35,844 bases of DNA. Source: an uncultured Bacteroidales bacterium (GTDB lineage Bacteria; Bacteroidota; Bacteroidia; Bacteroidales; UBA932). A program made the translations under genes and the position numbers. Below, in pieces: positions 6,751 through 35,841 of this stretch; position 1 is the stretch's first letter, and each line of letters opens with the position of its first letter. The stretch lies in contig CASFLY010000091.1 in assembly GCA_949295645.1 (NCBI GenBank), positions 1 through 35,844 of the forward strand, written 5' to 3'. Under the pieces are notes generated by a model, which was not told the DNA's origin, ran no database searches, and was given only the letters and a program-made list of their open reading frames with translations.

Positions 6751-6757
6751 TATTTTA

Positions 6758-7692: not shown

Positions 7693-7696
7693 AGAA

Positions 7697-10765: not shown

Positions 10766-10794
10766 ATCATCTGAAAGTCTCATAATCATATCAT

Positions 10795-12420: not shown

Positions 12421-12454
12421 ATTGTTCCGGTAAAATTAATGATAAATCTTCTCA

Positions 12455-12494: not shown

Positions 12495-12514
12495 AGATGA
12501 CGGGAAAACGGAAG

Positions 12515-13900: not shown

Positions 13901-13949
13901 TTTGCTTTTATTTTATTCGTTACTTTTTTGCAGATCCCTCGACTACGCT

Positions 13950-14005
13950 CGGGATGACACAGGGCGGTTCCGTATCCACTATGTACCGGGATGACACAGG
14001 GCGGT
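13950..14005. repeat. 19-bp direct repeat, CGGGATGACACAGGGCGGT
   Basis: Two identical copies, at 13950-13968 and 13987-14005, are 37 bases apart. The first is preceded by GATCCCTCGACTACGCTC, which forms a small hairpin with the GGGAT that follows. This reads like an interspersed intergenic repeat that I recall as common in Bacteroidales genomes. It lies in the gap between the SusD and binding-protein genes. Confidence 0.6.
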
Positions 14006-14028
14006 CACTTGTCAATTTCGCTGCAGGC

Positions 14029-14098
14029 CGGCTGTCGGACCGAGGGCACTGTTGCGCCCGCCAGGGCGTGTATCCCTGTGCCCTCGGTCCGACAGCCG
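14029..14098 (-). terminator. Long 21-bp stem hairpin after the susD-type gene
   Basis: GGCTGTCGGACCGAGGGCAC (14030-14049) pairs exactly with 14078-14097, and one more C-G pair closes the base. Within the 28-base apex a second stem CGCCC/GGGCG forms. The hairpin starts 8 bases after the SusD stop. There is no T-run, so partial termination, 3'-end protection or processing is more likely than complete stopping. It would lower expression of the five downstream genes relative to SusCD. Confidence 0.6.
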
Positions 14099-14105
14099 CC
14101 TCACC

Positions 14106-15863: not shown

Positions 15864-15891
15864 TGTCAATATTCTTTTAACAGTCTGGTCC

Positions 15892-18800: not shown

Positions 18801-19005
18801 CGGTAATGGCGAACTTGCCGTCGGCATCGGTAGTGACGCCGTTGGCGGTATTCCCCTCCTCATAGACGACTGCTCCGATGACCGGCAGGCCGTCCGTCGC
18901 GGATACGACTGTGCCTCCCGACTGCAGGGTCTGTGAAAAAAGGCTGAAGGCCGGGGTGCAGAGCACCGTAACGGCCAAAACGAGTTTTTTCAGTTGTCGA
19001 TTCAT
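15892..19005 (-). CDS. SusC/RagA-family TonB-dependent outer-membrane transporter
   Basis: 1037 residues. The signal peptide MNRQLKKLVLAVTVLCTPAF ends before residue 26. A carboxypeptidase-D regulatory-like domain spans about 27-105. A TonB-dependent plug follows (about 110-235), with RIRGVGTLNNNDPLYIIDGV and LKDASSASIYGSRAANGVII. The 22-strand barrel ends in a C-terminal Phe (LTFGVNLSF). It forms a complex with the downstream SusD partner and imports fructan oligosaccharides using TonB energy; BT1763 is the syntenic levan transporter. It is the first gene after the regulator. A 182-base gap upstream holds a -7 box and inverted repeats that probably bind the regulator. Confidence 0.95.
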   Translation of the reverse strand: MNRQLKKLVLAVTVLCTPAFSLFSQTLQSGGTVVSATDGLPVIGAVVYEEGNTANGVTTDADGKFAITVPDGASLVFSSLGYKTVTAVAAAAMDIVLEEDAVMLEETVVTGYSVQRKADLTGSISVVDMDDLAKQNENNPIKALQGRIPGMNITADGNPSGSTTVRIRGVGTLNNNDPLYIIDGVPTKAGMHELNGNDIESIQVLKDASSASIYGSRAANGVIIITTKKGEKGAVRVNFDASVAGSMYTNKMDVLNAEEYGRVMWQAYINEGQDPNSNSLGYAYDWNYGADGLPVLNKVSMQRYLDDANTTPSADTDWFDETTRTGIIQNYNLSASAGTDRTSAYFSLGYYKNEGIIKTTDFDRYSARINTEYKLIEDILTIGEHFTLNRTSEVQAPGGFLQNVLQFNPSLPVYTVDGDYAGPVGGYPDRENPVARLERNSNNRYTYWRTFGDAYLNLTPFKGFNVKTVFGVDYSQKQQRIFTMPVTEGNVATETNAVEAKQEHWMKWMWNLVASYAFEKGKHRGDVLAGVELNHDNSTWFSGYKEEFTILNPDFMWPDAGVGTAQAYGSSESYALVSYFAKANYTYADKYLLSLTVRHDGSSRFGKNNRYATFPSASVGWRISREPFLKSAGWIDDLKIRASWGQTGNQEISNTARYTIYVPNYGVSESGGQSYGTSYDITGSNGGSILPSGFKRNQIGNDDLRWETTTQTNIGLDFSFLKESLYGSFDWYWKDTKDILVQMAGIAAMGEGSSQWINAGAMKNNGFEFNLGYRNSTESGFVYDISANISAYRNEITELPATVAANGTFGGNGVKSVIGHPYGAQVGYVADGIFKSQEEIDNHAVQEGAGLGRIRWADLDGDGFITEADQDWIYNPVPDFSYGINFYFEYRNFDLTLFFQGVQGVDIISDLKKETDLWSGLNIGFLNKGSRLLDAWSPSNPDSDIPAVSRSDINNEKRVSTYFVENGSFLKLRNAQIGYNLPEKWASKVKMQRLRLYLSAQNVFTITSGDFTGVDPENPNYGYPIPLTLTFGVNLSF

Positions 19006-19093
19006 ATAGTTATCAGTTTATCCGAGTGTCTGTGGTCATACGGGAGCGAACGATGCCCCGCGGCTGCGGACATTTCCTGTCGACAGTCACGGG

Positions 19094-19101
19094 CAAAAAT
19101 A
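19094..19101 (-). promoter_or_regulatory. Candidate susC promoter -7 box
   Basis: The minus strand reads TATTTTTG, matching TAnnTTTG, with a leader of about 80 bases before the susC start. No good -33 TTG is found at 19-21 bases. That would fit a promoter needing an activator, and the inverted repeats at 19136-19183 sit just upstream in the activator position. Confidence 0.5.
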
Positions 19102-19135
19102 ACACTGTTGCGGATTCGGACGGATAAACGGATGT

Positions 19136-19183
19136 TGCAAATGATTGCAGGAATGTTTCGGATGAAACATTTGTTCCAGCAAT
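19136..19183. promoter_or_regulatory. Candidate operator for the hybrid regulator
   Basis: A nested inverted repeat at 19144-19183 reads ATTGC-n-GGAA-TGTTTC-GGAT-GAAACA-tttg-TTCC-n-GCAAT, near-symmetric except for a four-base insertion on one side. Next to it TGCAA-ATGA-TTGCA (19136-19149) is a second small inverted repeat. The block starts about 35 bases upstream of the susC -7 box and just after the regulator's stop codon, as expected for an AraC-type activator site. Confidence 0.45.
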
Positions 19184-19187
19184 TGTA

Positions 19188-21914
19188 TCATTTGTTACGG
19201 GATGCCGGGGTCTCGCCGAAATATTCCCTGTAGCATTTCGTGAAATACGACGGGGTGGAAAAGCCTACGGCATACGCGGCCTCGGACACGGACATCCCCG
19301 TCGACGAAAGGAGGGAAGCGGCCTTGCGCAGCCGGCATATCCGCAGGAATTCGTTCGGTGAATAGCCGATCAGTGATTTTGTCTTGCGGTACAGCTGCAC
19401 CCTGCTCAGCCCGATTTCCTCCCCGATGGCCTCGACGGAAAGCGCCGGATCGGAAAGTCTCGAATTTATAATGTCTTTCAGCTTGTCTATGAAGTCCCTG
19501 TCCACCTGAGTGACGCCTGAGACACCGGCAGCGGAATCCCCGAAAACGGAAGCAAGCATCTGCCTGTTTCCGATAAGGTTGCCAAGGCGGGCCATAAGCA
19601 GGTCCGCACTGAAAGGTTTGGAGATATACGAATCAGCCCCGCATTCATACCCTTTGATCTTCTGTTCCTCGGCAGCGTATGCCGTCAGCATCAGTACCGG
19701 AATATGGGACGTATTTATCTTCGATTTCAGGATACGGCAGCACTCCATCCCGTCCATCCCCGGCATCATCACATCGCAGATAATGGCGTCGGGCACATAC
19801 TTTCCGGCGAGCCTTATCCCCTCCGCGCCGTTCGATGCCTCCAGGATGTTGTACTCGTACGAAAGTATGGATTTCAGGTACGAACGGACATCCAGGTTGT
19901 CATCGATGACAAGAACCGTCTTCTTGGCCTCTAAGATTTCCTCGTCCGAAAACAGGCCCGTGGAAAGCGATTCCTGGGAAGCGTCATAGACGGCCCCGTC
20001 CCTGAACTTGACCATCCTGTCTTCCGGCACCGCGGCATCCTGCAGGCACTCCCCCGGCTGGCTGACAGGTAGAGTCAGCCTGAACACGGAACCTTTTCCC
20101 TCCGCGCTCGAGACCGTCAGGGTGCCTCCATGAAGTTCGGCAAAGGCTTTTGACAGCATCAGACCTATCCCCGAGCCGGAGTGATGGACGTCCGCCTGGT
20201 AAAAACTGTTGAAGATGTTGTTTATATGCGCGGCAGAGATGCCGGTGCCATTGTCCTGCACGTCTATCTCCACCTCGTTTTCATTTTCGGCGGACAAAAA
20301 AACCGAAATGCGTCCGCTGCCGTTGGCTTCGGTGAACTTGAAAGCGTTCGAGAGCAGGTTGTACACGATTCTTTCCACCTTTTCCTTGTCGGCTACGAGA
20401 GTAAAGCCACCATCCGGGCCGTCTGCAGTCAGGGAAAAATCTATGCGCTTCACCCTTGCTATGGAATCGAAGGCGGACATCCAGTCTTTCAGGGCCGCGG
20501 CCAGGTCGAAGCGGGTAAGGGAAAGGGTCAGTTTCCCGCTTTCGAATTTTCTGAAATCGAGGATCTGGTTCACGAGCCGGAGCAGAATCGTCACGTTCTT
20601 GTGCGCGATATTTATGAGAAACCGTTCCTTTTCCCCGAGGTTTCCGGATCTGATCAGCTGGTTTACGGGGTCTGCGACCAATGTCAGAGGCGTACGGAAA
20701 TCGTGGGAGACGTTGGTGAAGAACGAGAGCTTGGCATTCGTCGCCTCCTCTAATTTCCCGTTCATTTCTTCGAGTTTTGCCTTGGCCCTGCGGTTGTTTC
20801 TGAGCAGGACGGCAGTCACCGCCAGCAGCACGGAAAGGAGGATGACTATGATGAAACAGGCGGTCAGGAACATCTTCTGCAGAGAAGTGACGGTAAAGTA
20901 TTCATCCACCTTGCCCTGAAGGATGCGCACCTTCGAATCGAGAGCCTCCAGGCTTGCCGACTGCATCTGCAATATCCTGGCATTGGTGCTGTCCACGAGT
21001 GCCGTCCCCAGGATATTCGTCCTCTTGAAGTCTTTCCCTTCCAGAATCTTCATCGCCAGCTGGACAAGCCGGTCTCCTCCCGTAGGGTAGATGAACGATG
21101 CCGTAAGCGTCCCGTCCAGGACCATCTCTATACCGTTGCCCTGTCCCGGCATGGCATCTATGCCTATTATCACGATATCGTCCTTTCCTCTCTCTCCCGC
21201 CACTTTCCTTGCGCTTGCGGCCATCCTGTCGTTATGGGCGAACACGGCCTTCACGTCGGGAAAGACGGCCAGCAGCGAATCCGTCAGCGCCGCCGCCCGC
21301 GTTTCCGACCAGCCGGCGTCCACCGAAGCCGCGATTTCGATATTGTCCGCATTCTTCAGGGCATCGGCAAAGCCTTTCGAGCGCCCGATAGCCGGGGAGG
21401 AGCCGGACAGTCCGGTCAGTTCGATGACCTTACCGGAAGCGATGCCTGCCAGGTAATGCCCTATCTGCCAGCCTATATCATAATTGTCAGCCCCTATGAA
21501 AGCGGTATATTTCTGCGAACTTATGGTCCTGTCCACCAATATGACAGGAATGCCTTCGGCAAAGGCTGCCTCAACGGCCTGCGACACGGGGCCGGCCTCG
21601 TTGGGAGCCACGACGAGCAAATCAACTTTTCTGTCTGTAAAATATCCGATGTCGGCGATCTGGCGTGCATTGTCATCGTATGCAGACCTGATTTCCACTT
21701 CGACCCCGGGATAAAAAAGCGCCTCCCTCCTGATTTCCCGGTTCATCTGTTCTCTCCACGCATCGTCGCTGCACTGGGAAACCCCGATCAGACACCCGTC
21801 TTCCCGAGACCCGGAGCAGGACACGGCGAAAGCCAGACACAGGGCCGCGAACGGTATAAGAAGGACTGGCCTCGGCAGTCCCGGACGGGCAGGATCGATT
21901 ATGCGGTTTTTCAT
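19188..21914 (-). CDS. Hybrid two-component system regulator with periplasmic sugar-binding sensor
   Basis: 908 residues. A signal/anchor segment covers 17-33. A type I periplasmic-binding domain spans about 40-315 (LIGVSQCSDDAWREQMNREI, VVAPNEAG, VFAHNDRMA, GIDAMPGQG). One transmembrane helix (about 349-371) leads to the kinase: HisKA FTNVSHDFRTPLT with His404, and HATPase DNGTGIS and SGIGL. The receiver holds ICDVMMPGMDG with phospho-acceptor Asp714. A C-terminal AraC HTH (about 805-905) includes VQLYRKTKSLIGYSPNEFLR. It lacks the long beta-propeller sensor of most such regulators; this short design matches BT1754, which senses fructose in the periplasm. It should activate the downstream fructan genes. 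It lies directly upstream of the SusC gene on the same strand. Confidence 0.95.
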   Translation of the reverse strand: MKNRIIDPARPGLPRPVLLIPFAALCLAFAVSCSGSREDGCLIGVSQCSDDAWREQMNREIRREALFYPGVEVEIRSAYDDNARQIADIGYFTDRKVDLLVVAPNEAGPVSQAVEAAFAEGIPVILVDRTISSQKYTAFIGADNYDIGWQIGHYLAGIASGKVIELTGLSGSSPAIGRSKGFADALKNADNIEIAASVDAGWSETRAAALTDSLLAVFPDVKAVFAHNDRMAASARKVAGERGKDDIVIIGIDAMPGQGNGIEMVLDGTLTASFIYPTGGDRLVQLAMKILEGKDFKRTNILGTALVDSTNARILQMQSASLEALDSKVRILQGKVDEYFTVTSLQKMFLTACFIIVILLSVLLAVTAVLLRNNRRAKAKLEEMNGKLEEATNAKLSFFTNVSHDFRTPLTLVADPVNQLIRSGNLGEKERFLINIAHKNVTILLRLVNQILDFRKFESGKLTLSLTRFDLAAALKDWMSAFDSIARVKRIDFSLTADGPDGGFTLVADKEKVERIVYNLLSNAFKFTEANGSGRISVFLSAENENEVEIDVQDNGTGISAAHINNIFNSFYQADVHHSGSGIGLMLSKAFAELHGGTLTVSSAEGKGSVFRLTLPVSQPGECLQDAAVPEDRMVKFRDGAVYDASQESLSTGLFSDEEILEAKKTVLVIDDNLDVRSYLKSILSYEYNILEASNGAEGIRLAGKYVPDAIICDVMMPGMDGMECCRILKSKINTSHIPVLMLTAYAAEEQKIKGYECGADSYISKPFSADLLMARLGNLIGNRQMLASVFGDSAAGVSGVTQVDRDFIDKLKDIINSRLSDPALSVEAIGEEIGLSRVQLYRKTKSLIGYSPNEFLRICRLRKAASLLSSTGMSVSEAAYAVGFSTPSYFTKCYREYFGETPASRNK

Positions 21915-24681: not shown

Positions 24682-25809
24682 TCAGTCGTTGACCTCTATG
24701 CCGCCCTGGTCGATCAGCACGAGCTGGAGGCTGCCCTGGTACAGGGTCAGGACGCCGGTGGCGTTTATCGTCTTTTTCACGCCGTTCACTCCTTCCCTGA
24801 CCTCTTCCGGGATTTCAAGGTCGGCAAAACGGCTGTAGCCGCTGGTCCGGATCTGTATCTCGGTCCCGTTCGGCATGGTGAAATACTGGCTCACGCTTGC
24901 CGGAGAGGCATACCTCATCATCACGGACTTGTTCTCCGGATCGCCGACTGCCCCGTAATTCTGGTCATTGCCGTTCCCGAGCAGGACGTCATCCCAGTCC
25001 CCTGCAGCCAGATGCTCCTTTACATTCTGCTCGCTCATGGCCCAGGTGACAATGTTGTAGTTGTCCGGCTCTTCGCCGTCATCGGTGGAAAGGAAGACCC
25101 TGTTCGATGAACGGTCCCCGTCCACGTTCGAATTCACATAAAGCAGGGCGAAGATCTCCCCCGTATAAGTCAGGTTATTCAGGGTAATGAGTTTCCCTAT
25201 GTACCCGTTGTCGGCCTGAGTATCATCCCAGTCCGGCAGCCGGCTTTCCTCCACCGCTACCGGCTCCACGGGTTTCCCCGGATTTCCGCGGAATATGTGG
25301 GAATCTATCAGGTACTGCACCTCGATGTAGGAAGTCTCGTATTCTCCTGTAAGGTCTTCATAACCGAGCTGTACCATCCCGTTGCCGTATTTGTTGTACC
25401 TGTCGTCCCGGGTCTTGTAGCCGTACATCCCGAGCCAAAGCCCTTTGCAGTCCACATAAACCGTCTGCCCCGGCTTGTAGTCGTTGTAAAGCCCGGTCTT
25501 GCCCATCTTTATCTCGATGCCTCCTGTCTCGTCCTGGATGTAGAAACTCCGGTAGAAGTTCCCGGCCTGGTCCGAGGTGGAGACCTGTCCGGCTATCACG
25601 ATGTCATCCGTTATCTCCATCGGGTGCTCCGTCCGGTACATGGCGGCCAGCTGCTTTATCGTGTGCGTCGCCTCCATCTCCACCGGAGCGTACGCCTCCG
25701 GCTCCGGATACTGTCCGGTAAAGACCGGGGTAAACTCCTCGCAGGAATTCAATGCCGGCAAAGCCGAGACCATTGCGACAGCCCCTATAATTTCATATGC
25801 TATCTTCAT
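24682..25809 (-). CDS. DUF5689 OB-fold lipoprotein
   Basis: 375 residues. The ATG at 25809 is chosen because AGGA lies about six bases upstream and the signal is good, ending LNSC (Cys23); a GTG eight codons earlier is possible. The region about 45-210 matches DUF5689: TIKQLAAMYRTEH, DIVIAGQVSTSDQAGNFYRS, FYIQDETGGIEIKMG, PGQTVYVDCKGLWLGMYG. This is an OB-type barrel. The rest is beta-rich and unassigned. It is probably anchored in the outer membrane beside the TonB-dependent receptor encoded 101 bases upstream, as an accessory binding protein. OB folds often bind oligonucleotides, and the neighbours include two nucleases, so nucleic-acid fragments are a plausible ligand. No catalytic motif is seen. 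Confidence 0.75.
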   Translation of the reverse strand: MKIAYEIIGAVAMVSALPALNSCEEFTPVFTGQYPEPEAYAPVEMEATHTIKQLAAMYRTEHPMEITDDIVIAGQVSTSDQAGNFYRSFYIQDETGGIEIKMGKTGLYNDYKPGQTVYVDCKGLWLGMYGYKTRDDRYNKYGNGMVQLGYEDLTGEYETSYIEVQYLIDSHIFRGNPGKPVEPVAVEESRLPDWDDTQADNGYIGKLITLNNLTYTGEIFALLYVNSNVDGDRSSNRVFLSTDDGEEPDNYNIVTWAMSEQNVKEHLAAGDWDDVLLGNGNDQNYGAVGDPENKSVMMRYASPASVSQYFTMPNGTEIQIRTSGYSRFADLEIPEEVREGVNGVKKTINATGVLTLYQGSLQLVLIDQGGIEVND

Positions 25810-25910
25810 CTTGTCCTGTATATTATTTTTCACAATCTTCCTTTATCCTGAACAGTCCGTCGGGACCGGCAGTCCGCACATCCGCAGGCTCCGGCCGCCG
25901 CAAACGGGAC

Positions 25911-28900
25911 TCAGAATCTGAAGTACAGATTCAACATATAATTGATACCGCTCATATAGAAATACTTGGAGTCGAACCTGTAGTACCTCGTCCGGCTCTC
26001 GCTGTCGATGAGCCTCGTCTGCTCGTAGCCGCCGGTCTTGACACCCCTGTTGTTCAGGATGTTCTTCACCTCGAGGGAGAATCCGAAATTGTACTTCCTG
26101 TCGATGTACCAGGACTTGCCGATGCTTGCATTCAGCAGGAATACCGGGTCGAACTTCTCCTGAGCTGCCATATACTCTATTTCTTCCGGCGAAAGCCCCA
26201 TATTGTCCTGGATGGTCTTGTTCAGGAACCAGGTGTTGCTGTGCTCTTCTATGGCCCCTGCAGTCATGGTATTGTCCGGCCCGGCCACAGCCGTCATCGT
26301 CCTGTACAGAGGGTTCATATCGAGATAGGAATTCGCGAAATACTGTGCATTCAGTTCGAAGAACCAGTAGGTATTCGTCCTGTAGCGCAGCCCGAGATCG
26401 GCCGCCAGCTGAGGCGTGCTCGGCACATAATGCTTCTGCTCCTTTTCGAGGATATAGTTCCCAGCGGCATCCCTGTCGAACATTTCGACGCCGTCGACCG
26501 TGATTTTCCTGTAGATCGGATGGCTCCTCCAGTAGGTCACAGGCTGGTTGTCTATAATGACTTCAGCGCTGTTGTCGATGGTCTGGGTCATATACGGAGT
26601 GGAAGTGTAGATGTACTCGCCCCAGCTCAGGACGCCCTGAAGGAAGAGATTCTGAAGGTAAAGAGGAATCTCGAAACCGAGCTCTATACCCATGTGCCTC
26701 TGGTCGATGCCTGTCATCGCAAAGTTGGTGAACGAGTTCTGGGAATCGTCGTAGAAACTCATCATGTCGGTCTGGTCCATAATCTTGGTCCAGAAGCCGG
26801 TAAGACGGATGTCGTAGCCGTTGTTGCTGTAGGTATAGTTGATGTCGGCCGACACGGTCTTCGTGGTGGTCAGGTTCGGCACGAGGGTGTTGCGGGTCCT
26901 CGGGGAAATGAACGACTGGTTGAATGTAGGGGCATCGTTGAAATAGCCTGCATTCGCATAGACCCTGTGGCCTCCGCTGAAAAACCAGCCGGCGCCGAGT
27001 TTGGCGGAATAAGTGAAGAAGTCCGCGACATCGGAACGCCCTTTGGAGGTAATAACGTTGCCCTTGCTGTCGTAAGAGGTAAGCACCTTGCCGGTAACCG
27101 GGCTGATGAATTCGCTGCCGTCTTCGTTCAGGCCCGGGAAAAGGCCTTTCCTGTAGACACCGTCCCTCCAGAACTTCGAATAGCCGGCCTCTACCGCCGC
27201 ATAGCCGCGGAACGGACCCTTTTCGAACGAGGCATTGGCCCAGAGCCGTGCATCGCGCACGTTGGCGAAATAATCATAGCCGTACTTGTCGCCTTTGTAG
27301 AGCCTCTGCGCCTGGTTATGGGCCATATAGTAGTCGAGGTCATTCTGGATCATCGCGGCATCCGAAGCGAAGTCGCGCTCGGCGAACTGGTCGATGTTCA
27401 CATAGTAGTCGCCTCCGAGCAGGTCATCAGCCACCTTGTAATATTCGGTCTTGTTCCATCTGTAGTTCAGTCCTCCTGTCAGGGTGAACCAGTCCTTTGC
27501 CCTCCACTTCACGCTGCCGTTCAGGTTCAGGTCGTTCTGATCAGTGCGCCTCTCCTCGATGATGTACTTGGAGCGGCTGAATCCGTCGGCGTCGGTATTG
27601 TTCCAGTTCACATTATAGAGCCTGTCCCAGTTTATATGCCTGGTATTGTTGTAGTCCGTAATCCAGGCCTCGGTCGCCCAGGCGTATTTCTCGTAGCTGT
27701 CCCTCCCGTAATCGTCATTGGCCATGTAGAAATAGCTCGGGAGGTTCCTGTAGTAGTCCGGTCTCGGGTCATAGGTGTCGTACCAGTCGAGGGCCGTATA
27801 GCCGTTCTTTCCCGTCCGGTAGGTCACCGTGGCCGAAGCCTCGAGGTTTTCGAGCGGGGTGGCCGTGTATTTCAGGACGAAGACCGGCTCATGGGTCTTG
27901 CGGACACGGGCGTTGCGGAGCTTCCCGTTCTGATAGCCCCAGTTCGAGTTGTACATGTTGTCCCCGACCAGATCATAGACTTCCTGGGTCGAAGCGTTCT
28001 GCGCTCCCCTCTGCGTCGGTGAAGCGAAAGCCGCGAGACTGAGCCTGTGGACATCCCCGAATTTCTTCTCCACTCCGGCATAGTAGGCGAACGAGCGGTA
28101 GTAGACGCCCTTCACCCAGTCGTTTCCGCCGAGACGCGCAGAAACGTTGAACGCATAGGACCAGCCGTTGTCCAGTTCACCCGAAGCGTATGTGGCCATC
28201 AGCCGCAGGCGGTACAGGGCGCTGTTGGTCAGGGCGCTGAATCTCCAGCCCTTACGCACGTTGGAAGGGGTCGCGAGGATATTCGTCACACCGTTGTACC
28301 CTCCGAAACCATAGTCGTAGACTTCAGTGCCGTTCACAGTTTCCTTGCTTCTCATGGCCTCGTTCAGCCCGCTCCACAGAGACCACGGCGTGTAGCCGGT
28401 AAGCGCGTCGTTCATCCGCACTCCGCTCACATAGACGTCCTGGGACTCACTCGAATAGCCCCTGTTCCTGAATCTGATAGCACTGAAACCGTAGCCGGCG
28501 ATAGTCGTGTATACGTCGTTCCCGTAAAGCAGGGACGGGGCATCGTCGTAGCCCGAATCGTCCATATCGAACTCCATGAAACTGGATTCGTCGAAATTGG
28601 CCAGCCGCTCGGAAGACACCAGCGAGACGAAAATCAGATCCCGGACGAAACCTTCCACAGAGACATTCACCTGCGTTCCCGTAAATCCGGGAGCCGTCAC
28701 CGACAGGCGGTAGGTGCCGTTTTCCAGCCCCTCGAAAATGAAGGATCCGTCAGGGCCCGCCGTGCCTCCGGCAATGTGTTCGTCGCCGCAGTACAGTTCT
28801 ATGGCAGCCCCGGGAACCGGCACACGGCCGTTCCTGTCCACGACGGTTCCCCTGACCCCGCCCTCGCTTCCGAGTACGGGCACCTTGTACCATTCTATCC

Positions 28901-29000
28901 TGCCGCCGTATGTGGGCTTCCGGTCGTTCTGCTGTGCATCCGCTGCCGCCGGCAGAAAGAAAACCGCAGCCAAAAGTATCGACAATAATTTGCTGTTCAT
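25911..29000 (-). CDS. TonB-dependent receptor without SusD partner
   Basis: 1029 residues. The signal peptide MNSKLLSILLAAVFFLPAAA is followed by a carboxypeptidase regulatory-like domain (about 48-120: VRGTVVDRNGRVPVPGAAIE). A plug and a large aromatic-rich barrel end in LNLYFRF. It lacks the SusC plug wording (no YIIDGVP block), and no SusD gene is adjacent, so it is a separate class of transporter. Its substrate must be judged from context: a DUF5689 lipoprotein downstream, and an EEP nuclease, a DNA/RNA endonuclease and an OB-fold/BACON lipoprotein upstream, all co-directional. Import of nucleotides, nucleosides or oligonucleotides is the leading idea; phosphate or metal complexes remain possible. 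Confidence 0.85.
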   Translation of the reverse strand: MNSKLLSILLAAVFFLPAAADAQQNDRKPTYGGRIEWYKVPVLGSEGGVRGTVVDRNGRVPVPGAAIELYCGDEHIAGGTAGPDGSFIFEGLENGTYRLSVTAPGFTGTQVNVSVEGFVRDLIFVSLVSSERLANFDESSFMEFDMDDSGYDDAPSLLYGNDVYTTIAGYGFSAIRFRNRGYSSESQDVYVSGVRMNDALTGYTPWSLWSGLNEAMRSKETVNGTEVYDYGFGGYNGVTNILATPSNVRKGWRFSALTNSALYRLRLMATYASGELDNGWSYAFNVSARLGGNDWVKGVYYRSFAYYAGVEKKFGDVHRLSLAAFASPTQRGAQNASTQEVYDLVGDNMYNSNWGYQNGKLRNARVRKTHEPVFVLKYTATPLENLEASATVTYRTGKNGYTALDWYDTYDPRPDYYRNLPSYFYMANDDYGRDSYEKYAWATEAWITDYNNTRHINWDRLYNVNWNNTDADGFSRSKYIIEERRTDQNDLNLNGSVKWRAKDWFTLTGGLNYRWNKTEYYKVADDLLGGDYYVNIDQFAERDFASDAAMIQNDLDYYMAHNQAQRLYKGDKYGYDYFANVRDARLWANASFEKGPFRGYAAVEAGYSKFWRDGVYRKGLFPGLNEDGSEFISPVTGKVLTSYDSKGNVITSKGRSDVADFFTYSAKLGAGWFFSGGHRVYANAGYFNDAPTFNQSFISPRTRNTLVPNLTTTKTVSADINYTYSNNGYDIRLTGFWTKIMDQTDMMSFYDDSQNSFTNFAMTGIDQRHMGIELGFEIPLYLQNLFLQGVLSWGEYIYTSTPYMTQTIDNSAEVIIDNQPVTYWRSHPIYRKITVDGVEMFDRDAAGNYILEKEQKHYVPSTPQLAADLGLRYRTNTYWFFELNAQYFANSYLDMNPLYRTMTAVAGPDNTMTAGAIEEHSNTWFLNKTIQDNMGLSPEEIEYMAAQEKFDPVFLLNASIGKSWYIDRKYNFGFSLEVKNILNNRGVKTGGYEQTRLIDSESRTRYYRFDSKYFYMSGINYMLNLYFRF

Positions 29001-29047
29001 TTAGTTGTTGTTTTAATGGTTGTACAATGCCGTCGTCATCACGGGCC

Positions 29048-29138
29048 TGCAACGGCCTCCGGTACCGGCAGTGTCCTGCATTGCCTCCGGCTGACGGGGC
29101 TGCAATGTTTCCGGTTTACGTGGCCGCATTGCCTCCGG
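29048..29138. repeat. Four-copy short repeat between the EEP and receptor genes
   Basis: Copies of a TGCATTGCCTCCGG-like unit start at 29048, 29077, 29101 and 29125, with steps of 29, 24 and 24 bases. The last copy ends two bases before the EEP stop codon. On the minus strand the core reads CCGGAGGCAATG. It may be a tandem-duplicated spacer or a set of binding sites. In one alternative frame it encodes RPEAM/KPETL/QPEAM repeats, but that frame has no credible start. Confidence 0.55.
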
Positions 29139-29140
29139 TC

Positions 29141-30220
29141 TCAGTCGGCCTTTTCCAGGACTATGTAGGTCGGCAGATGGTCGCTGTAGCCTCCTATGAA
29201 CGCCCCGTATGAAAACGTCCTGAACGGATAGCCCTTGTACTGTCCGCGCTGCGAAATCATAAACGGCTTCTTGTAGATGACCCCGTAGAAGCCCTTTTTC
29301 CCAACAGGCCTGATTTTCATCCCGCCGTCCGGAGCATTCAGCAGGGTCTCGTTCACGAGTATCACGTCGTAGATGTTCCACGTCCCCTGGTAGCCTAGAG
29401 AGCCGTAACCGGCCTTGAGCATCGAGATGAACGGAGAGAAATAGTCATCCTTCCCCACCTGCTCCGGCTTCTCCTTCCCGTGCATATATTCAGTCATGCT
29501 GACATCTGTCGGATTGTCATTCATATCCCCCATCACCACGATTTTTATCCCCGGATGCTTCTCCGCCATTTTCCGCGCATGGCCGTAGATGATTTCAGCC
29601 CCGCGGCTCCTCAGATCCCAGCCTTTCCCGCCGATGCGCGACGGCAGGTGGGCCACATAGAAAGCGAACTCCTCCCCGTCCAGAAGGCCGTGGGCCATAA
29701 GTATGTCCCTCGTCTTGAAGCCCTCGCGGTCTTCGGCCGACATCGCGAATCCGATGGTTTCACTGTTGAAGTCGAACGGTACGGACTCGCTGTCTATCAG
29801 CGTGAAATGATCCGGCCTGTACAGCAGGCCCACGTCCACACCTCTCACGTCCGGGCTGTCGTAATGCACTATCTGATAGTTCGCATCCGCTATTTCCGGC
29901 TGGCTCACAAGGTCTTCCAGCACAAGCCGGTTTTCTATTTCGCTCACTCCGAGCACGGAATGGAAGCGCCCGTTCGTTTCGGCCATAGACCTTATGACCG
30001 TCGCCATGTTGTGCAGCTTTTTCAGGTATTTTTCCTCTGTCCATTTGTTCGCCCCGTCCGGCAGGAACTCCTCATCGTTTTTTACCGGATCGTCATAGAT
30101 ATCGAACAGGTTTTCAAGATTGTAGAACCCGACTACGAATGTTTTCGGACGTCCGTCCCGGGCGATTGCCGCAGATACGGAAACGAGAAGGACGACAAGA
30201 AAAAGTGTAAATTTTTTCAT
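29141..30220 (-). CDS. Secreted DNase I-like endonuclease/exonuclease/phosphatase
   Basis: 359 residues. MKKFTLFLVVLLVSVSAAIA is a signal peptide without a lipobox, so the enzyme should be periplasmic or released. The EEP fold motifs are complete: FYNLENLFD (Asn34), GVSEIEN (metal ligand Glu94), VDVGLLYRP, AHLPSRIGG (His191), VMGDMNDNP (Asp232, Asn234) and terminal YSDHLP (His348). Members cleave phosphodiester bonds in DNA or RNA or act as phosphatases on small substrates; sequence alone does not choose. It follows the endonuclease lipoprotein gene by 22 bases and precedes the TonB-dependent receptor, so an operon role in nucleic-acid degradation is likely. Confidence 0.88.
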   Translation of the reverse strand: MKKFTLFLVVLLVSVSAAIARDGRPKTFVVGFYNLENLFDIYDDPVKNDEEFLPDGANKWTEEKYLKKLHNMATVIRSMAETNGRFHSVLGVSEIENRLVLEDLVSQPEIADANYQIVHYDSPDVRGVDVGLLYRPDHFTLIDSESVPFDFNSETIGFAMSAEDREGFKTRDILMAHGLLDGEEFAFYVAHLPSRIGGKGWDLRSRGAEIIYGHARKMAEKHPGIKIVVMGDMNDNPTDVSMTEYMHGKEKPEQVGKDDYFSPFISMLKAGYGSLGYQGTWNIYDVILVNETLLNAPDGGMKIRPVGKKGFYGVIYKKPFMISQRGQYKGYPFRTFSYGAFIGGYSDHLPTYIVLEKAD

Positions 30221-30242
30221 TTGCGAACAATAAGATTTTCAG

Positions 30243-31397
30243 TTAATTCAGCCCCCACAGACTGCTATAGTCCTTCGGATCCTGAGCCTCCACGGCCGCA
30301 GCCTCGGCCGCGGAACCGATTCTTGCAGGCAGGTTTACGAAAAAGTCGATGCCGGTCTTTTCTTCAAGATCGTCGATGGACATGCTTTCTTCGGCCGTAA
30401 TGGAGCCGTAGCTTCTGTGCTCGACATAGAACGCGGCGCCCATATACCTGGAACTGTACGTGGAATGGCTGTTGTACCACAGCAGCGCCTTGAAATAGCC
30501 CACAGGAACAGTGACCGCCTTACCGTCATTGTCATAAGCCTTTTTCGTACTTCCCTCTATGACGCATCCCGTCACGACGTACAAGGTGTCGGCAGTCTTG
30601 GACCAGCCGCGGACCTTTTCCTCCAGACCGGCCCAGGCCGGGGAGTTGAGCGACTGAAGCTGGGGTGTCATATTGGTAAAATAGAAAGTCGAAGGGTTCG
30701 AACCACCCGCATATCTGTCCGCAGACGGCAGCTGGTGTCCGCGCGAATAGCCCCCGCTGAATCCGTTGAAAAGGACAGGCTGGTCTTCCTTCGGCACTTC
30801 AGGGTCATAGCCCCAGTCATCCGTCCGTTTCCCGTCACCGATCAGGCCTGCATTCAGCGGATAGGCTACCCAGTGCGCCACAAGGTTTTCCCTGTCCCAG
30901 AGAAAGGAATAGTTCCGGATTCTTTTCCCGGCAACGGTCATGTCGTGCGAATAGAACCGGCAGATTTCGTCCTGCTCCAATTTCGGAAGTTCGAGCCATT
31001 TCGGATCCGCTGCCGGCAGGTCCGTGGAAGACTGTCCCTGCTGCGTGAAAGTCACCGCATAGTCATGATCCGAAGTCGTGAGGATGATTCTGAGCGAACG
31101 GCTGTCTTCCGACGGATTCTCCCCGTATGTCAGGATAATGCCCGACTTGCTGCCCCGCCCCGAGGTGGAGGTCAGCGACGCCCAAGGTTCCGCCCCGTCC
31201 ATATAATAAAGGGAAAGCAGCCATTTCCCCGACGCCTTTACCGAAACTGTCCTGTATCCCGCCTCGCAGGACACCGATTTTTCCGACACGCTGACATCCG
31301 GAGTCACCCCCATGTCCTCGCACGAGACCACCCCCGGCACAGCCATCATCAGCATCGCGCCTGCCGCCAAAGCCTTCATTACAGAGAAACGGAACAT
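30243..31397 (-). CDS. BACON-domain lipoprotein with DNA/RNA non-specific endonuclease domain
   Basis: 384 residues. The lipoprotein signal ends GVVSC (Cys26). A BACON-type Ig domain covers about 33-122 (VSEKSVSCEAGYRTVSVKAS ... DYAVTFTQQG). The catalytic part (about 145-375) is of the NucA/Serratia nuclease type: SRGHQLPSADR with general-base His221, then FTNMTPQLQSLN with metal-region Asn242 and Asn251, and VPVGYFKALLW. The common DRGH reads SRGH here; the Asp is replaced by Ser. It should sit on the surface and cut DNA or RNA without sequence preference. An alternative start at 31379 would shorten the n-region. It is followed closely by the EEP nuclease gene. Confidence 0.88.
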   Translation of the reverse strand: MFRFSVMKALAAGAMLMMAVPGVVSCEDMGVTPDVSVSEKSVSCEAGYRTVSVKASGKWLLSLYYMDGAEPWASLTSTSGRGSKSGIILTYGENPSEDSRSLRIILTTSDHDYAVTFTQQGQSSTDLPAADPKWLELPKLEQDEICRFYSHDMTVAGKRIRNYSFLWDRENLVAHWVAYPLNAGLIGDGKRTDDWGYDPEVPKEDQPVLFNGFSGGYSRGHQLPSADRYAGGSNPSTFYFTNMTPQLQSLNSPAWAGLEEKVRGWSKTADTLYVVTGCVIEGSTKKAYDNDGKAVTVPVGYFKALLWYNSHSTYSSRYMGAAFYVEHRSYGSITAEESMSIDDLEEKTGIDFFVNLPARIGSAAEAAAVEAQDPKDYSSLWGLN

Positions 31398-31426
31398 TTT
31401 TCGTTAAGTTATGAATTTTGGGAAAG

Positions 31427-31457
31427 AAAGGGATGCCCCGGGCGGGGCGATCCCTTT
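31427..31457 (-). terminator. Hairpin between the OB-fold lipoprotein and endonuclease genes
   Basis: On the minus strand AAAGGGATCGCCCC pairs with GGGGCATCCCTTT (one-base bulge) around a short loop, and CTTTCCC follows. It lies about 90 bases after the lipoprotein stop and 30 bases before the endonuclease start. It may terminate part of the transcription and so reduce the nuclease genes relative to the abundant surface protein. No convincing new promoter is visible after it. Confidence 0.6.
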
Positions 31458-31549
31458 AATAGTTTTATACTTCACACTTATATACTTTTAAGATTTAGCC
31501 ACATAGACTGAGTGACAAGATCTTAAAATTTACAGGATTTCTTATAAAA

Positions 31550-33607
31550 TCAATACTCGACTTCTATTTTGTAAAGCCAAATAGCAGCACTGGAAGCTAT
31601 GTTAAAATATGTCGGTGCTCCGGAAATCGTAACGTCATACACAAAAACATCTAATTCTACAGGACCGCTGCCATAAGAATCTCCTGTTGCAGTGATTTTT
31701 TCAGTAGATGTTGTATAAACTGCCTCAGTTGTAGGATTCGCATCCGTTCCGATTGTAATTTTAGTATCAGCAATATCTGCTTCGTTATTAGAAGGATCTT
31801 TATCTTTGTCTACGACATAAACTTTCAAAGACTTGATTTCCTTTGCTGTTTTATTTGTAATATAACCAACAGACTTCCTAATCTGAATGAATTGACCGGC
31901 ATCTATTTTAAGTGTACCGTCCTTACTGTTTTTACAGATCTCCATCGCGGCATATTCCACATCTGAGATCGTTCCTGTCTTTTCTGTAGAGTAATTACCA
32001 TAGCTATTACTTCCCAACTCACCTAATGCCGATTCTATACTCTTGACATCGATGATTACCGCACCTGAAACTGCCGCAGACTTGCCTTTCTGTGTAACGT
32101 TTATCGTAAATGACTTCGTGGCGACTTCTGCATTTTCTGTCTCTACAGTAATCTTGGCCTGACGTTCGGTTTCACTGTCATTTGCAGTATATGTTACAGT
32201 AATTGTCGCATTGCCGTTTCCGGTTTCCTTGTCTACGGAAAAATTAGCTTCGTCGGAAGATGTAACCGTCCAATCGACGTTAGACTTGATTTCAAATGTT
32301 GTGGTGCTGGCTGCTGCACCGACATTAAGAGTTTCCGTAGAGACACTCAGACGAGGTGTTGTATTTTCAGCCACTTCCTTAGGGAGAATGTTGAAATAGC
32401 CTCTTGCATTCCTTCCTCCGTAATAGCCGGTAATGGTCAGTTCTGCTCCATCGGTAAACTTCTCGTCCAGGGAAGAAGACACGACAGAACCGGTACCGCC
32501 TTCGCCGTCAAAATTCAGGTTGGTATAATCCCCGTCTATTTTTACAGTTGCGTTGACTTTCACATACTCCGTCGACTGGCTGCTGAATGAAGCGAGTTCC
32601 TGTCCTGAGAGTTCTTTGGCTGTCTGCTGGCTTGGCGTGAATGTATCTGAAATCTTCTCGATTGTCGGAGAGGCAATCTGGATCATTTTCGTAGCAATTG
32701 TCACACCGTCATTTACATAGTCCGGATATTCTGTCTTAGTTCCGGTCACTTTGACATTATCTCCTACAGCCACTCCAGGGTCCTCGTTCACATAAACATA
32801 CAGGTTCTTTTCTCCGCCGTCATTTATTACAAAACTTACATTGCCGGCTGCAATGACCTGCCCTTTAACCGCCACTTTCAGTTCGGTCGTAGTGAATATG
32901 TCTTCTATTGAATTCAGTTCTGCCGCTTCTACTTCGTTTGCCGGAACATGGCTGACATAATATGTTGGCATACTCTTGCTTCCAGCCTGCGGAGTGCCGT
33001 TATAGTCACTCCTGATTCCGCAGATAGTCACGACATCGCCGACTTCCAGTCCAAGCGTAGCAAAACTTTTATCATTTGAGCCTTCCTGCTTCGTGGCTGT
33101 CAGACCTTGAATGTCCAACGTACCTGTACCATCCTGAATCACCAGATTTCCATACGTATCATTCTTTATCTTGGTAATCATTCCTTCAAGATAATACCAG
33201 ACATCCTCACTTACGGATTTCGAGATAAAATCTTTGATAGTAGTGATTTGAATCGGAGCCCCGGCTTGTTTTATCTCCAACGTTGCAGATGCTACAGTAG
33301 CATTGAATGTAATTTTCGTAGATTTTTCAAAGCCAGTATTAGCCTTCACTTCAACAGTCACGGTTTCCCCTTCTGTCGCAGCCCCGCTTGCCGGTGTTAC
33401 GGTCACCCATTCCTTGGCTGATTCAGGAACTTCAGCTACCCAGTCCCGGGTAGAAACGACAGTCACAGACTGAGTTTCGCCGTCTTCTCCAAAAGTAAGC
33501 GTTGCAGGCTCTACCGAGATAGACGGAGTCGTAACCTCATCCTCTTTGCAGCCGACAAATGTAGCGGCGGCCGCAAAACCGATTAAAAATAGAGTTTTTA
33601 ATTTCAT
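31550..33607 (-). CDS. BACON/OB-fold surface lipoprotein
   Basis: 685 residues. The lipoprotein signal ends FVGC (Cys20). A first BACON domain covers about 30-117 (SVEPATLTFGEDGETQSVTV ... ASATLEIKQAG). Two or three OB-like barrels follow (about 118-410): YLEGMITKI ... NLVIQDGTGTLDIQG ... GLEVGDVVTICG, then KVAVKGQVIAAG ... GVAVGDNVKVTG, and YVKVNATVKIDG ... DGAELTITGYYGG. A second BACON domain lies at about 412-508, and the C-terminal 170 residues form a beta-rich domain ending in IWLYKIEVEY. No catalytic motif is seen. It has the strongest promoter in this part of the window and is first in line before two nucleases and a TonB-dependent receptor, so it is probably the surface binder. Base composition is more A+T-rich than the genes downstream. 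Confidence 0.78.
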   Translation of the reverse strand: MKLKTLFLIGFAAAATFVGCKEDEVTTPSISVEPATLTFGEDGETQSVTVVSTRDWVAEVPESAKEWVTVTPASGAATEGETVTVEVKANTGFEKSTKITFNATVASATLEIKQAGAPIQITTIKDFISKSVSEDVWYYLEGMITKIKNDTYGNLVIQDGTGTLDIQGLTATKQEGSNDKSFATLGLEVGDVVTICGIRSDYNGTPQAGSKSMPTYYVSHVPANEVEAAELNSIEDIFTTTELKVAVKGQVIAAGNVSFVINDGGEKNLYVYVNEDPGVAVGDNVKVTGTKTEYPDYVNDGVTIATKMIQIASPTIEKISDTFTPSQQTAKELSGQELASFSSQSTEYVKVNATVKIDGDYTNLNFDGEGGTGSVVSSSLDEKFTDGAELTITGYYGGRNARGYFNILPKEVAENTTPRLSVSTETLNVGAAASTTTFEIKSNVDWTVTSSDEANFSVDKETGNGNATITVTYTANDSETERQAKITVETENAEVATKSFTINVTQKGKSAAVSGAVIIDVKSIESALGELGSNSYGNYSTEKTGTISDVEYAAMEICKNSKDGTLKIDAGQFIQIRKSVGYITNKTAKEIKSLKVYVVDKDKDPSNNEADIADTKITIGTDANPTTEAVYTTSTEKITATGDSYGSGPVELDVFVYDVTISGAPTYFNIASSAAIWLYKIEVEY

Positions 33608-33662
33608 AACTTTGAGTTATTTAAGTGTAAATTCCGTATTTCCTTGCCTTGCTCTGAAACGA

Positions 33663-33694
33663 CAAATATATAACATTTAGCCCCATTATACAAA
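33663..33694 (-). promoter_or_regulatory. Consensus Bacteroidota promoter for the OB-fold lipoprotein
   Basis: On the minus strand TTTG (33691-33694), 20 bases, then TATATTTG (33663-33670), an exact fit to the Bacteroidota TTTG-N19-21-TAnnTTTG form. The leader would be about 50 bases. It is the best promoter match I found in the window. Confidence 0.75.
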
Positions 33695-33782
33695 AAGAAT
33701 TTTAATTAATTTTCTATTAAATTTTCAAATTATTATCTTCCGCCCTCATTTTCCTATCATTTATTAACGCCGCCACAGAAAA

Positions 33783-33945
33783 ATGACTCAAAACGAACTT
33801 GCCATAAAGGCAGGCACCACAAAATCATATATTTCCAAAATCGAAAAAGGCTGTGTCGAGCCCGGGGTCGACAATTTACATTACCGATTTCTGCAAAATT
33901 TATATCTTCGCAGAAAATCCCAAATGGTTTGATGATGCAGCATAA
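33783..33945 (+). pseudogene. Frameshifted XRE-type HTH remnant
   Basis: From ATG 33783 the frame encodes MTQNELAIKAGTTKSYISKI-EKG, a clear helix-turn-helix of the XRE/HTH_3 kind. After ...CVEPG the frame drifts and stops early. If one base is removed in the CCCGGGG run (about 33861-33867), reading continues as STIYITDFCKIYIFAENPKW and stops at TAA 33943-33945. The first helix of a normal XRE domain is also missing, since an in-frame stop lies at 33765. It is therefore probably a decayed regulator or antitoxin. Its extended frame overlaps the start of the next gene by about 14 bases, suggesting the two were once translated together. A programmed shift is possible but less likely. Confidence 0.65.
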
Positions 33946-34291
33946 GACATTGGAAAACGGCAGATGGGCTGAACTTCCGTTCATAGAACAGATGGCCAAC
34001 ATCGGAAGTGAAGTCGGAAGGACATATTCCGCAAAGAAAAGAGGAGATGCCGTACGGGCGGAAAAGGCCTTCGAAAGAGCACTGGAACTGTTCGACCTGA
34101 CTAAAAAATACGGTCGGTTGAACGATCCGGACAGAGGGGCGATGCTAAAAGAAGTATGCCGGCTCAGAGAAGTTTTCTGTAAAGACTATCTTTCTTCCGA
34201 CCCCCAGGCCCTTGCCGGACTCGACAAGTATTTCTTCCAGTTCGCCGTAGCCGCACGGCTCCGCCGCCACAATCAGGCCCCGCAACGATAA
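33932..34291 (+). CDS. Small conserved helical protein of unknown function
   Basis: 119 residues from ATG 33932 (a second ATG follows at 33935). It reads TLENGRWAELPFIEQMANIG-SEVGR, then a helical stretch (KAFERALELFDLTKKYGRL) and an LREVFC-containing C-terminal half. I recall a widespread uncharacterised family of about 120 residues with the same TLENGRW/EQMANIGSEV opening. No signal peptide, metal motif or enzyme motif is visible; predicted structure is a helical bundle. It overlaps the frameshifted HTH remnant, so it may be the surviving half of a two-gene module. A terminator lies 60 bases downstream. Confidence 0.7.
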   Translation: MMQHKTLENGRWAELPFIEQMANIGSEVGRTYSAKKRGDAVRAEKAFERALELFDLTKKYGRLNDPDRGAMLKEVCRLREVFCKDYLSSDPQALAGLDKYFFQFAVAARLRRHNQAPQR

Positions 34292-34350
34292 TCTCCCGCT
34301 TATTTTTACGCTGCAAGTAACTGATTCTTAACCAAATAAAAAGGAAAAAC

Positions 34351-34380
34351 AAAATAAACAGGTTCAAACCTGCTTATTTT
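34351..34380. terminator. Bidirectional terminator between convergent genes
   Basis: AAAATAAACAGGTT pairs with AACCTGCTTATTTT (one mismatched pair) around a two-base loop. A-rich and T-rich flanks give U-tracts on both strands. It ends the small plus-strand gene and the minus-strand ATPase gene, whose stop is four bases away. Confidence 0.8.
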
Positions 34381-34383
34381 TAC

Positions 34384-35841
34384 TCAAAGCCCGCAGTGCA
34401 GTACCTTGCGATTCAGCGTATTTTCTCCGACCGTATAGGAATAGCAGGCTACAGGCATAAAATTCATGGTCATATCATCATCAACCCCGACAACCCCGCT
34501 TTTGCTTATGCTGGTAACGATTGTGGATTTCAGATTGTTCTTCTTCATAAAATACCTCAACGAACGCAATGAATCCGGTCGTTCATAATATCTGTCGCTC
34601 CACTTCACTTCTACGGCCCATTCCGGCTTCTGCGTAAGGCTGTCCATTCCGACAATATCGACCTCCCCCTGCTCCCGTCCCTGCATCCAGTTTGCATAAT
34701 GCACATCCTCCTGGCGAGGAATCCATTGCGCATATACCGCTGTCTCGACCATATCCCCTATCTCATTGTCATTCCCTCCTATAGGCTGGAAAAGGGCACA
34801 ACGCAATGACGGATTTGTAAGGTAAATCTTGAACTGCGTTTCTCTCTGATATTTTTTCGCATTGTCATCCGTTCTGTGAATGACTTTTATCAGAAATGCG
34901 GCCTCAAGATAACTTATGTATCTCCGCAACGTGTCTTTTTTCACGCCGGATTCCTTTGACAGGACTTCATACGAAAACTGCCTGCCGGAATGATAGGCCA
35001 TCATTGTAAAAAGAGAATTCAGTTCCTGAACATCGGAGATGCCATAAAGGCTCGGCAAATCCCTTAAAAGCACCTTGTCAATGATGTCATGCCGTATGAA
35101 TTGTCCCGGATTTTCCCTGATTCTCTCGGAAAAGACGACCTCGGGATATCCACCGTAATTTATATAGTCGATAAAAAGTTCATTCAGCTTCGCTATGGAT
35201 ATTGTTTCATAACAAGGTACCTTTTCTCCATTATGAACAATCGATGACGGAATCATAATGTTCGAATAGCCTTTAAGATGTACGTACTCGTAGAACGTCA
35301 GCGGCGGCAAACTGAAATCGGAAAATCGGCCGGCCCCGCTTTCGTCACTTCTCTTTCTGAGTTCTGCCGCAGCCGATCCCGAGGCCACGAATTTAACATT
35401 CAGATAGGTGTCCACCATTGATTTCAGGCTGACTTCCCAATCCTTAAGATATTGTATTTCATCATAAAACACATACATTCTGTCTTTTGTCCGGTCTTTA
35501 CCGAGGATTCTGCAGGCAAGCGCGAACAACAAGTCCAGATCGATTTTGTTATATATCGGCGTTTCGACGGAAATGTAGACTATATTCTGAGCCGGAACTC
35601 CGCTTTCAATAAGACGTTCTATCGTATGGAACATCATGACGGTTTTTCCTACGCGTCGCGGTCCCATCAGAATGACGGAACGCCGCAAATCCGTAGCCTC
35701 AACCATCGGCAGAAACGAATTGATATAGAACCGGGGAGTCATCCTGGCATAGTATTCAGGAATATGCCCTTCTGTCCACCACGGATTGTCTACTTTCAGC
35801 CTTCCTATAATCTGACTTTCCAACAAATCGGTATATTGCAT
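34384..35841 (-). CDS. AAA ATPase with DUF4143-type C-terminus
   Basis: 485 residues. Walker A is GPRRVGKT (60-67). Walker B is MYVFYDEIQYL (Asp127, Glu128). The C-terminal third carries the DUF4143 pattern and a nuclease-like core: GEVDIVGMDSLTQKPEWAVE-VKW, in which Asp, Glu and Lys are spaced as in PD-(D/E)XK folds. The start MQYTDLLESQIIGRL lies four bases from the window edge, so an upstream start cannot be excluded. It belongs to the same broad family as the ATPase at 1060-2316 but is a different subgroup (485 against 418 residues, with a longer N-terminal segment before Walker A). Cellular role unknown. Confidence 0.85.
   Translation of the reverse strand: MQYTDLLESQIIGRLKVDNPWWTEGHIPEYYARMTPRFYINSFLPMVEATDLRRSVILMGPRRVGKTVMMFHTIERLIESGVPAQNIVYISVETPIYNKIDLDLLFALACRILGKDRTKDRMYVFYDEIQYLKDWEVSLKSMVDTYLNVKFVASGSAAAELRKRSDESGAGRFSDFSLPPLTFYEYVHLKGYSNIMIPSSIVHNGEKVPCYETISIAKLNELFIDYINYGGYPEVVFSERIRENPGQFIRHDIIDKVLLRDLPSLYGISDVQELNSLFTMMAYHSGRQFSYEVLSKESGVKKDTLRRYISYLEAAFLIKVIHRTDDNAKKYQRETQFKIYLTNPSLRCALFQPIGGNDNEIGDMVETAVYAQWIPRQEDVHYANWMQGREQGEVDIVGMDSLTQKPEWAVEVKWSDRYYERPDSLRSLRYFMKKNNLKSTIVTSISKSGVVGVDDDMTMNFMPVACYSYTVGENTLNRKVLHCGL

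Follow-up and report, generated by a model that had tools for sequence, protein, structure and literature searches.

In Riemerella anatipestifer, a transposon screen for natural transformation found two adjacent genes to be essential: RA0C_RS04915, encoding a CarboxypepD_reg outer-membrane protein, and RA0C_RS04920, encoding a protein with DUF5689 and DUF5017 domains (PMC8459023). In the sections of that study drawn on here, markerless deletion of either gene brought transformation below detection (average limit 4.2e-10, compared with 5.4e-5 for the wild type), seven other markerless mutants that it names exhibited no significant change, and the authors speculated that RS04920 binds DNA and that RS04915 carries DNA across the outer membrane, placing RS04915 homologues in Flavobacteriaceae only. 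As excerpted, a second study reports lowered transformation for tonBA and tonBB mutants of R. anatipestifer, the tonBB effect possibly acting through iron, as well as an effect of medium phosphate (PMC8383284), and part of a third describes R. columbina as also competent and Flavobacterium johnsoniae as not competent under the same conditions (PMC7965970). Here we describe a related gene cluster in a 35,844-nucleotide stretch of an uncultured Bacteroidales bacterium (contig CASFLY010000091.1, assembly GCA_949295645.1), referred to in its entirety as the window. We found the five co-directional minus-strand open reading frames (ORFs) of the cluster at 24682-33607, as located by a sequence-only reading that had proposed a system for binding, cutting and importing extracellular nucleic acid. 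By analogy, the closest experimental precedent for the cluster is DNA uptake for transformation, and neither nutrition nor phosphate scavenging. It is somewhat probable that the locus encodes an outer-membrane DNA-uptake complex of the Riemerella transformation kind, equipped with surface nucleases, that would capture extracellular DNA, cut it and take it up, with food as its somewhat likelier use.

Like the Riemerella locus (PMC8459023, in the parts considered), the window carries a receptor gene of the RA0C_RS04915 family (25911-29000, minus strand, 1029 aa), directly followed by a gene for a 383-aa DUF5689 lipoprotein related to RA0C_RS04920 (24682-25833, minus strand), its predicted partner, and an adjoining gene for an endonuclease/exonuclease/phosphatase (EEP) protein. 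We linked sequences to RA0C tags through gene order and numbering in locus L117 (genome G238), whose receptor is 93% identical to that of R. anatipestifer CCUG25054 and 77% to that of R. columbina. In L117, ComEC is followed by two further genes, EEP, the receptor and a DUF5689+DUF5017 gene, which is the order implied by the RA0C numbers 04895, 04910, 04915 and 04920, and the EEP position fits RA0C_RS04910; the expected RecA position, five numbers before ComEC, falls beyond the stretch read. The Riemerella gene matching EEP appears a single time in PMC8459023, where its expression was tested, and the markerless mutants of that study do not include it. The window receptor itself is ~30% identical to the named R. 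anatipestifer CCUG25054 receptor (L128) and to that of R. columbina. In a midpoint-rooted tree, which drew 18 tips from the 56 named loci (taking one in three of the 53 that measure 700 aa or more) and 39 from a second order sample of 40 loci, 103 receptors formed one clade apart from 10 paralogous receptors (support 0.805, stem 0.70). On these comparisons, the window receptor and DUF5689 protein belong to the same family as the Riemerella RA0C_RS04915/RS04920 pair.

Pfam returned only CarboxypepD_reg-type matches for the window receptor (7e-12), with no plug or barrel match of its own to E 0.01, unlike the SusC of the same window. In the family member L101 a Plug match reached 23.7 bits, just below the cut-off of 23.9, and matches of the receptor profile to solved structures were confined to the CarboxypepD_reg part. 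The earlier description as a TonB-dependent receptor without SusD is thus upheld with regard to the missing SusD and to family membership; given that the protein has no plug or barrel match, the label "TonB-dependent receptor" rests on the family.

To survey the surroundings of this receptor, we tallied 142 loci (16 from the window's genus, 4 from its order, 20 from the phylum, 6 from Riemerella, 56 named, and 40 from the second order sample), with genes found by custom ORF picking without a trained gene caller. Three genomes are counted twice in this total (L119, L120 and L121 correspond to the named L135, L129 or L128, with an identical receptor) and no other duplicates were found; L058 and L060 stand outside the tallies, and eight other genus genomes of 25 gave no full-length receptor. 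DUF5689 was the next gene downstream on the same strand in 137 of the 142 loci (16, 3, 19, 6, 53 and 40, in the above order), two of the five misses being at contig ends. EEP was the next gene upstream in 111 (16, 2, 14, 6, 45 and 28), divergent in 91 and co-directional in 20, and at least four of the 31 loci without it owe this to contig ends. Ten control loci with paralogous receptors yielded DUF5689 once (L061) and neither EEP nor the nuclease, although two of them end before the downstream neighbor and one before the upstream neighbor. Judged by this adjacency, the receptor and the DUF5689 lipoprotein are one conserved pair.

Within five genes of the receptor, an Endonuclease_NS-type match was observed in only 24 of the 142 loci (16 in the genus and 8 in the second order sample); this profile also includes the BACON domain, and Pfam confirmed Endonuclease_NS in all eight of the 24 that were scanned (the window, L045, L185, L205, L208, L220, L209 and L223). 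The sequence-only reading had named regular pairing of receptor and DUF5689 gene away from nucleases as counting against it, and this is in part what we found: 118 of the 142 loci have no Endonuclease_NS-type match in that range and 31 have no EEP as the next gene upstream, on account of which the nucleases appear accessory to an uptake pair of older origin. All six loci of the Riemerella sample read EEP on the minus strand, then receptor and DUF5689 on the plus strand, in receptor orientation; named loci of R. anatipestifer, R. columbina and R. columbipharyngis were obtained separately. The Riemerella loci differ from the window in their divergent EEP gene, in the DUF5017 domain that follows DUF5689 in L117 and in having no Endonuclease_NS-type match within five genes, whereas the five window genes all run in one direction and include two for nucleases, and the window's genome encodes, at another place, a shortened ComEC.

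In an even phylum sample the receptor was present at >=570 bits in 22 of 148 genomes, every one of them from the window's class; relatives that scored lower (<=263 bits) were set apart. Of 198 genomes sampled from the window's order, 92 carried it at the same threshold (99 matching genomes less 7), and family f20, the sampled family of G052 that includes Riemerella, carried it in 142 of 148 genomes at E 1e-80. The comparison extends the pair from Flavobacteriaceae to nearly half of the sampled genomes in the window's order. In an open-access literature search limited to titles and the starts of abstracts, we found no report of the receptor/DUF5689 pair in Bacteroidales or of its nuclease-armed form, nor of the frequent EEP neighbor; DUF5689 itself turned up in a single paper, the R. 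anatipestifer transformation study (PMC8459023). The pair is already known from Riemerella, where it emerged from mutagenesis with a speculative model only; what appears new here is its extension to the window's order, its frequent EEP neighbor and its nuclease-armed form. EEP, Endonuclease_NS, receptor and DUF5689 make up a concrete list of candidate genes for outer-membrane DNA crossing in Bacteroidota.

Both nucleases of the sequence-only reading were borne out. The gene at 29141-30220 (minus strand) encodes a 359-aa secreted EEP (DNase I-like, PF19580) protein with an Exo_endo_phos_3 match at 8.7e-92, and all 92 rows of the family alignment share its catalytic residues (N, E, H, D, N and SDH) without change. 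The gene at 30243-31397 (minus strand) encodes a 384-aa lipoprotein that joins BACON (1.8e-6) to a DNA/RNA non-specific endonuclease domain of the Serratia nuclease/EndoG superfamily (Endonuclease_NS, 3.5e-36; 125.4 bits against a cut-off of 23). In a phmmer match of this protein to the Serratia nuclease 1ql0 (9.2e-18) the positions of H, N and E coincide, and each of the 16 genus loci whose receptor is full-length has a profile match, at 372-498 bits. The serine noted in place of aspartate in the DRGH motif is real (SRGHQ), and the catalytic His, Asn and Glu are present. Because the Asp position varies among relatives (A, T, D, S or Q), we rejected the serine as a mark of a dead nuclease. Of 26 aligned rows, 16 conserve the R and H along with the N and E positions that come after them, and the others are mostly BACON lipoproteins recruited via the common domain. 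With Serratia marcescens nuclease, EndoG and EXOG the window enzyme shares the domain family and the conserved His, Asn and Glu; unlike them, it is a lipoprotein with an N-terminal BACON domain and a variable residue in place of the DRGH Asp.

Closer inspection of the receptor tree places the window receptor in a clade of 21 tips (support 0.999) comprising 17 genus tips, the sister genus L185, L205 and L208 of family f92 and L220 of family f120. An Endonuclease_NS-type gene lies within 5 kb on the same strand in 21 of 21 of these tips, with the domain confirmed by Pfam in six of six scanned (the window, L045, L185, L205, L208 and L220); among the other 82 receptor tips only L209 and L210 have such a gene within 5 kb, on the opposite strand. 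The order Endonuclease_NS, EEP, receptor, DUF5689 is found in the genus, the sister genus and f92, and in f120 EEP is divergent and the nuclease follows DUF5689. A separate observation concerns L058 (genome G019, 5175-12833), which keeps EEP and the nuclease next to a receptor shortened to 542 aa with no DUF5689 gene after it.

A large lipoprotein gene stands upstream of these genes in the genus. In the window this first gene (31550-33607, minus strand) encodes a 685-aa lipoprotein, a predicted surface binder, with the lipobox TFVGC-KED read from the sequence. The sequence-only reading had assigned it a BACON/OB-fold/BACON architecture, of which BACON is supported by Pfam (BACON_2 5.8e-14 and BACON 5.6e-12, two stretches each) and the OB-type core by homology, since the protein has no OB match of its own above the Pfam cut-off (RMI2, 17 bits against 29.4). 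The core, at about residues 115-412, aligns with parts of the L043 and L046 lipoproteins that exceed the Pfam cut-offs for tRNA_anti-codon/tRNA_anti_2; the window protein is 31% identical to the OB part of L043 (2e-17), and its core scores 366 bits against L046 with a family-built profile. Among 12 genus relatives scanned, the upstream lipoprotein exceeded the cut-offs for nucleic-acid-binding OB domains in seven (L038, L040, L041, L042, L043, L044 and L046). The DUF5689 domain is found within the upstream lipoprotein of L185 and L205 and within the downstream lipoprotein of L220, and the upstream lipoprotein of L208 had no Pfam match. Against solved structures, the window lipoprotein matched two chains, both in BACON-type regions, and that of L042 matched none.

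For the DUF5689 lipoprotein, whose gene probably starts at an internal ATG (codon 9), Pfam supported the domain (1.2e-41) and the OB fold of the earlier description was not confirmed: comparison of the DUF5689 profile with the 685-aa lipoprotein core gave a probability of 10.9%, which we did not accept as an OB assignment, and the single chain matched among solved structures lies in the C-terminal part of the profile, with none in the DUF5689 part. The window protein contains DUF5689 only, and DUF5017 follows it in L049, L050, L101 and L117; DUF5017 is not constant in the pair family, as it was not above the listing limit in L111, L112 and L102. Two f20 DUF5689 proteins scored 753 and 717 bits against NCBIfam lipo_M949_1556 (cut-off 475), compared with 49.9 bits for the window protein. 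These f20 scores tentatively suggest that M949_1556 of R. anatipestifer CH3 may be the same gene as RS04920; going by its title, a study of M949_1556 cited in PMC12566107 reportedly assigns it a role in antigenicity and pathogenicity. Two further DUF5689 proteins were observed, one in a 699-aa frame of the window's own genome (L060, G000:C159:68881-69480) and one encoded next to the control-set paralogous receptor of L061 (5217-7133, 7152-9650); the latter shows that DUF5689 partners are not unique to this receptor family.

Within the proposed uptake complex, the BACON/OB lipoprotein and the DUF5689 lipoprotein would be exposed on the outside of the cell and bind DNA (or RNA), cutting would fall to the anchored Endonuclease_NS lipoprotein and to the secreted EEP protein, and the TonB-driven large receptor would carry strands or fragments into the periplasm, where they may serve as food (phosphate, nucleobases, deoxyribose) somewhat more than for recombination. 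Surface position, DNA binding, DNA passage through the receptor and nutritional use are what we infer. The bind-cut-import proposal of the sequence-only reading gains strong indirect support from the membership of the pair in a family essential for Riemerella transformation (PMC8459023, in the sections cited), from the frequent EEP neighbor and from the OB domains in the upstream lipoproteins of relatives, and loses from the absence of nucleases near many receptors. Should import be confirmed, DNA from the environment and from hosts would become a recognized food class, or a gene-exchange route, for these bacteria. We put forward only tentatively the further proposal that the receptor may be a TonB-powered pore through which DNA polymer crosses the outer membrane, which would supply the step at this membrane that is missing from DNA uptake in Bacteroidota, and that one clade may have made of it a nucleic-acid feeding locus resembling a polysaccharide locus by adding surface nucleases and OB-domain binders.

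Several observations weigh against such a nuclease-armed uptake complex feeding on DNA. The Riemerella phenotype is a requirement, not transport through the receptor, and the substrate could have shifted given the low identity of the window receptor to that of Riemerella. F. johnsoniae has homologues yet was not transformable under the conditions tested (PMC7965970 and PMC8459023, in the portions considered), and the tonBB effect may act through iron (PMC8383284, likewise in part). Riemerella transformation needs no Endonuclease_NS, and 118 of the 142 loci, as described above, have no match to it within five genes. No OB match exceeded the Pfam cut-off in the upstream lipoprotein of the window or of 5 of the 12 genus relatives (L034, L035, L036, L047 and L048). 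As for DNA catabolism, deoC is found in 17 of 18 genomes, outgroups too, and does not discriminate; we discarded it as evidence. Finally, both f92 genomes carry the nuclease together with a full-length ComEC, and 7 of 9 genus genomes contain candidate multi-HHH ORFs (HHH_3 repeats, 299-388 aa), RS02645-like as judged by domain and size only, whose presence argues against transformation having been lost.

These last two points also favor a different use of the same genes, in which the locus would still be a natural-transformation outer-membrane complex, with surface nicking, long strands imported for recombination and food secondary; we consider this unlikely. In its favor, Riemerella cannot be transformed when either member of the related pair is lost (PMC8459023, as excerpted), and the ComEC core and DprA, the latter in 15 of 15 genomes including the window's own, are present. 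Against it, all 20 genomes examined from the window's family have ComEC ORFs of 351-406 aa, and both of the short ComECs scanned (L124 2698-3825 and L126 3278-4369) had no DUF4131 and were missing the end of the Competence domain, unlike the 602-aa Riemerella ComEC with DUF4131. In 61 other genomes ComEC measured 566-771 aa in 57, the others being G027 (527), G030 (461, truncated by a contig end), G035 (317) and G026, in which nothing matched. Two cutting enzymes would, moreover, shorten donor DNA, and neither the window genome (83.55% complete) nor G005 yielded a multi-HHH RS02645-like ORF. The shortened ComEC channel makes recombination less likely in the window's family, and for this reason we regard food as somewhat likelier than transformation as the end use there. 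Nuclease gain accompanying ComEC loss was rejected as a general rule: since the nuclease coexists with a full ComEC in the two f92 genomes, the shortening does not track the nuclease and does not explain its gain.

Receptors of the TonB-dependent type usually carry small ligands, which counts for another substrate (nucleosides, peptides, a metal or another small ligand), with the Riemerella phenotype being indirect and the nucleases doing no more than process DNA outside the cell, such as that of biofilms. In all three genus loci scanned for it (L036, L038 and L041), DUF5689 is followed by an M3 peptidase gene, with similar-sized ORFs in several more, and BT3563, an extracellular DNase of Bacteroides thetaiotaomicron for which we claim no orthology, acts on biofilm DNA (PMC11078008, in the part drawn on). 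We nevertheless judge this explanation quite improbable, as the EEP gene adjoins the receptor in loci from Riemerella to the window's order, and receptor and DUF5689 deletions each abolished transformation when the seven other markerless mutants showed no significant change (PMC8459023, same sections). Very improbable in our view is a phosphate-scavenging locus, induced by phosphate limitation and using DNA as a phosphorus source only: the gene content is compatible, medium phosphate affects R. anatipestifer transformation (PMC8383284) and phosphorus is among the proposed uses of secreted nucleases in sludge Bacteroidota (PMC11495043, both in part), but no phosphate-transport gene was found among the scanned neighbor proteins, many neighbors lying outside the scans, and Riemerella transformation falls, rather than rises, without phosphate (PMC8383284).

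The nuclease-armed cluster resembles SusC/SusD polysaccharide utilization loci in its co-directional surface lipoproteins, cutting enzymes and TonB-type receptor. Unlike these, it has nucleases and OB/DUF5689 lipoproteins in place of SusD or glycoside hydrolases, and Pfam matched neither SusD nor carbohydrate-active enzymes among the five genes. A locus of the SusC/SusD kind lies in the same window at 8957-21914 (minus strand), fructan-type in content, with two GH32 enzymes (one BT1760-like), a DUF4960 protein, SusD, SusC and a hybrid two-component sensor.

In the window, successive genes of the cluster lie 152, 22, 140 and 77 bases apart; the last four are tightly spaced in 15 genus relatives (gaps of -26 to +23 bases). 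A match to TTTG-N20-TANNTTTG, which we take to be the Bacteroidota promoter consensus, lies at 33694-33663 on the minus strand, 55 bases 5' of the ATG of the first gene; the window holds two matches to this pattern against 0.33 expected, a number reached in 3 of 100 shuffles. G+C content is ~0.44-0.46 over the first lipoprotein gene and beyond (31000-35000), compared with 0.53-0.57 over the receptor and EEP genes, which is consistent with an acquired or faster-changing lipoprotein gene. Both window ends are low in G+C (0.385 at 1-2000 and 0.444 at 33001-35000), and two AAA_14/DUF4143 ATPase genes lie near them, at 1060-2316 (plus strand) and 34384-35841 (minus strand). In four genus relatives a large OMP_b-brl_4 outer-membrane barrel is encoded upstream of the cluster (L041 3-4049, L045 3-2360, L046 3-2570 and L048 16610-19501), accompanied in L041 by a BACON lipoprotein.

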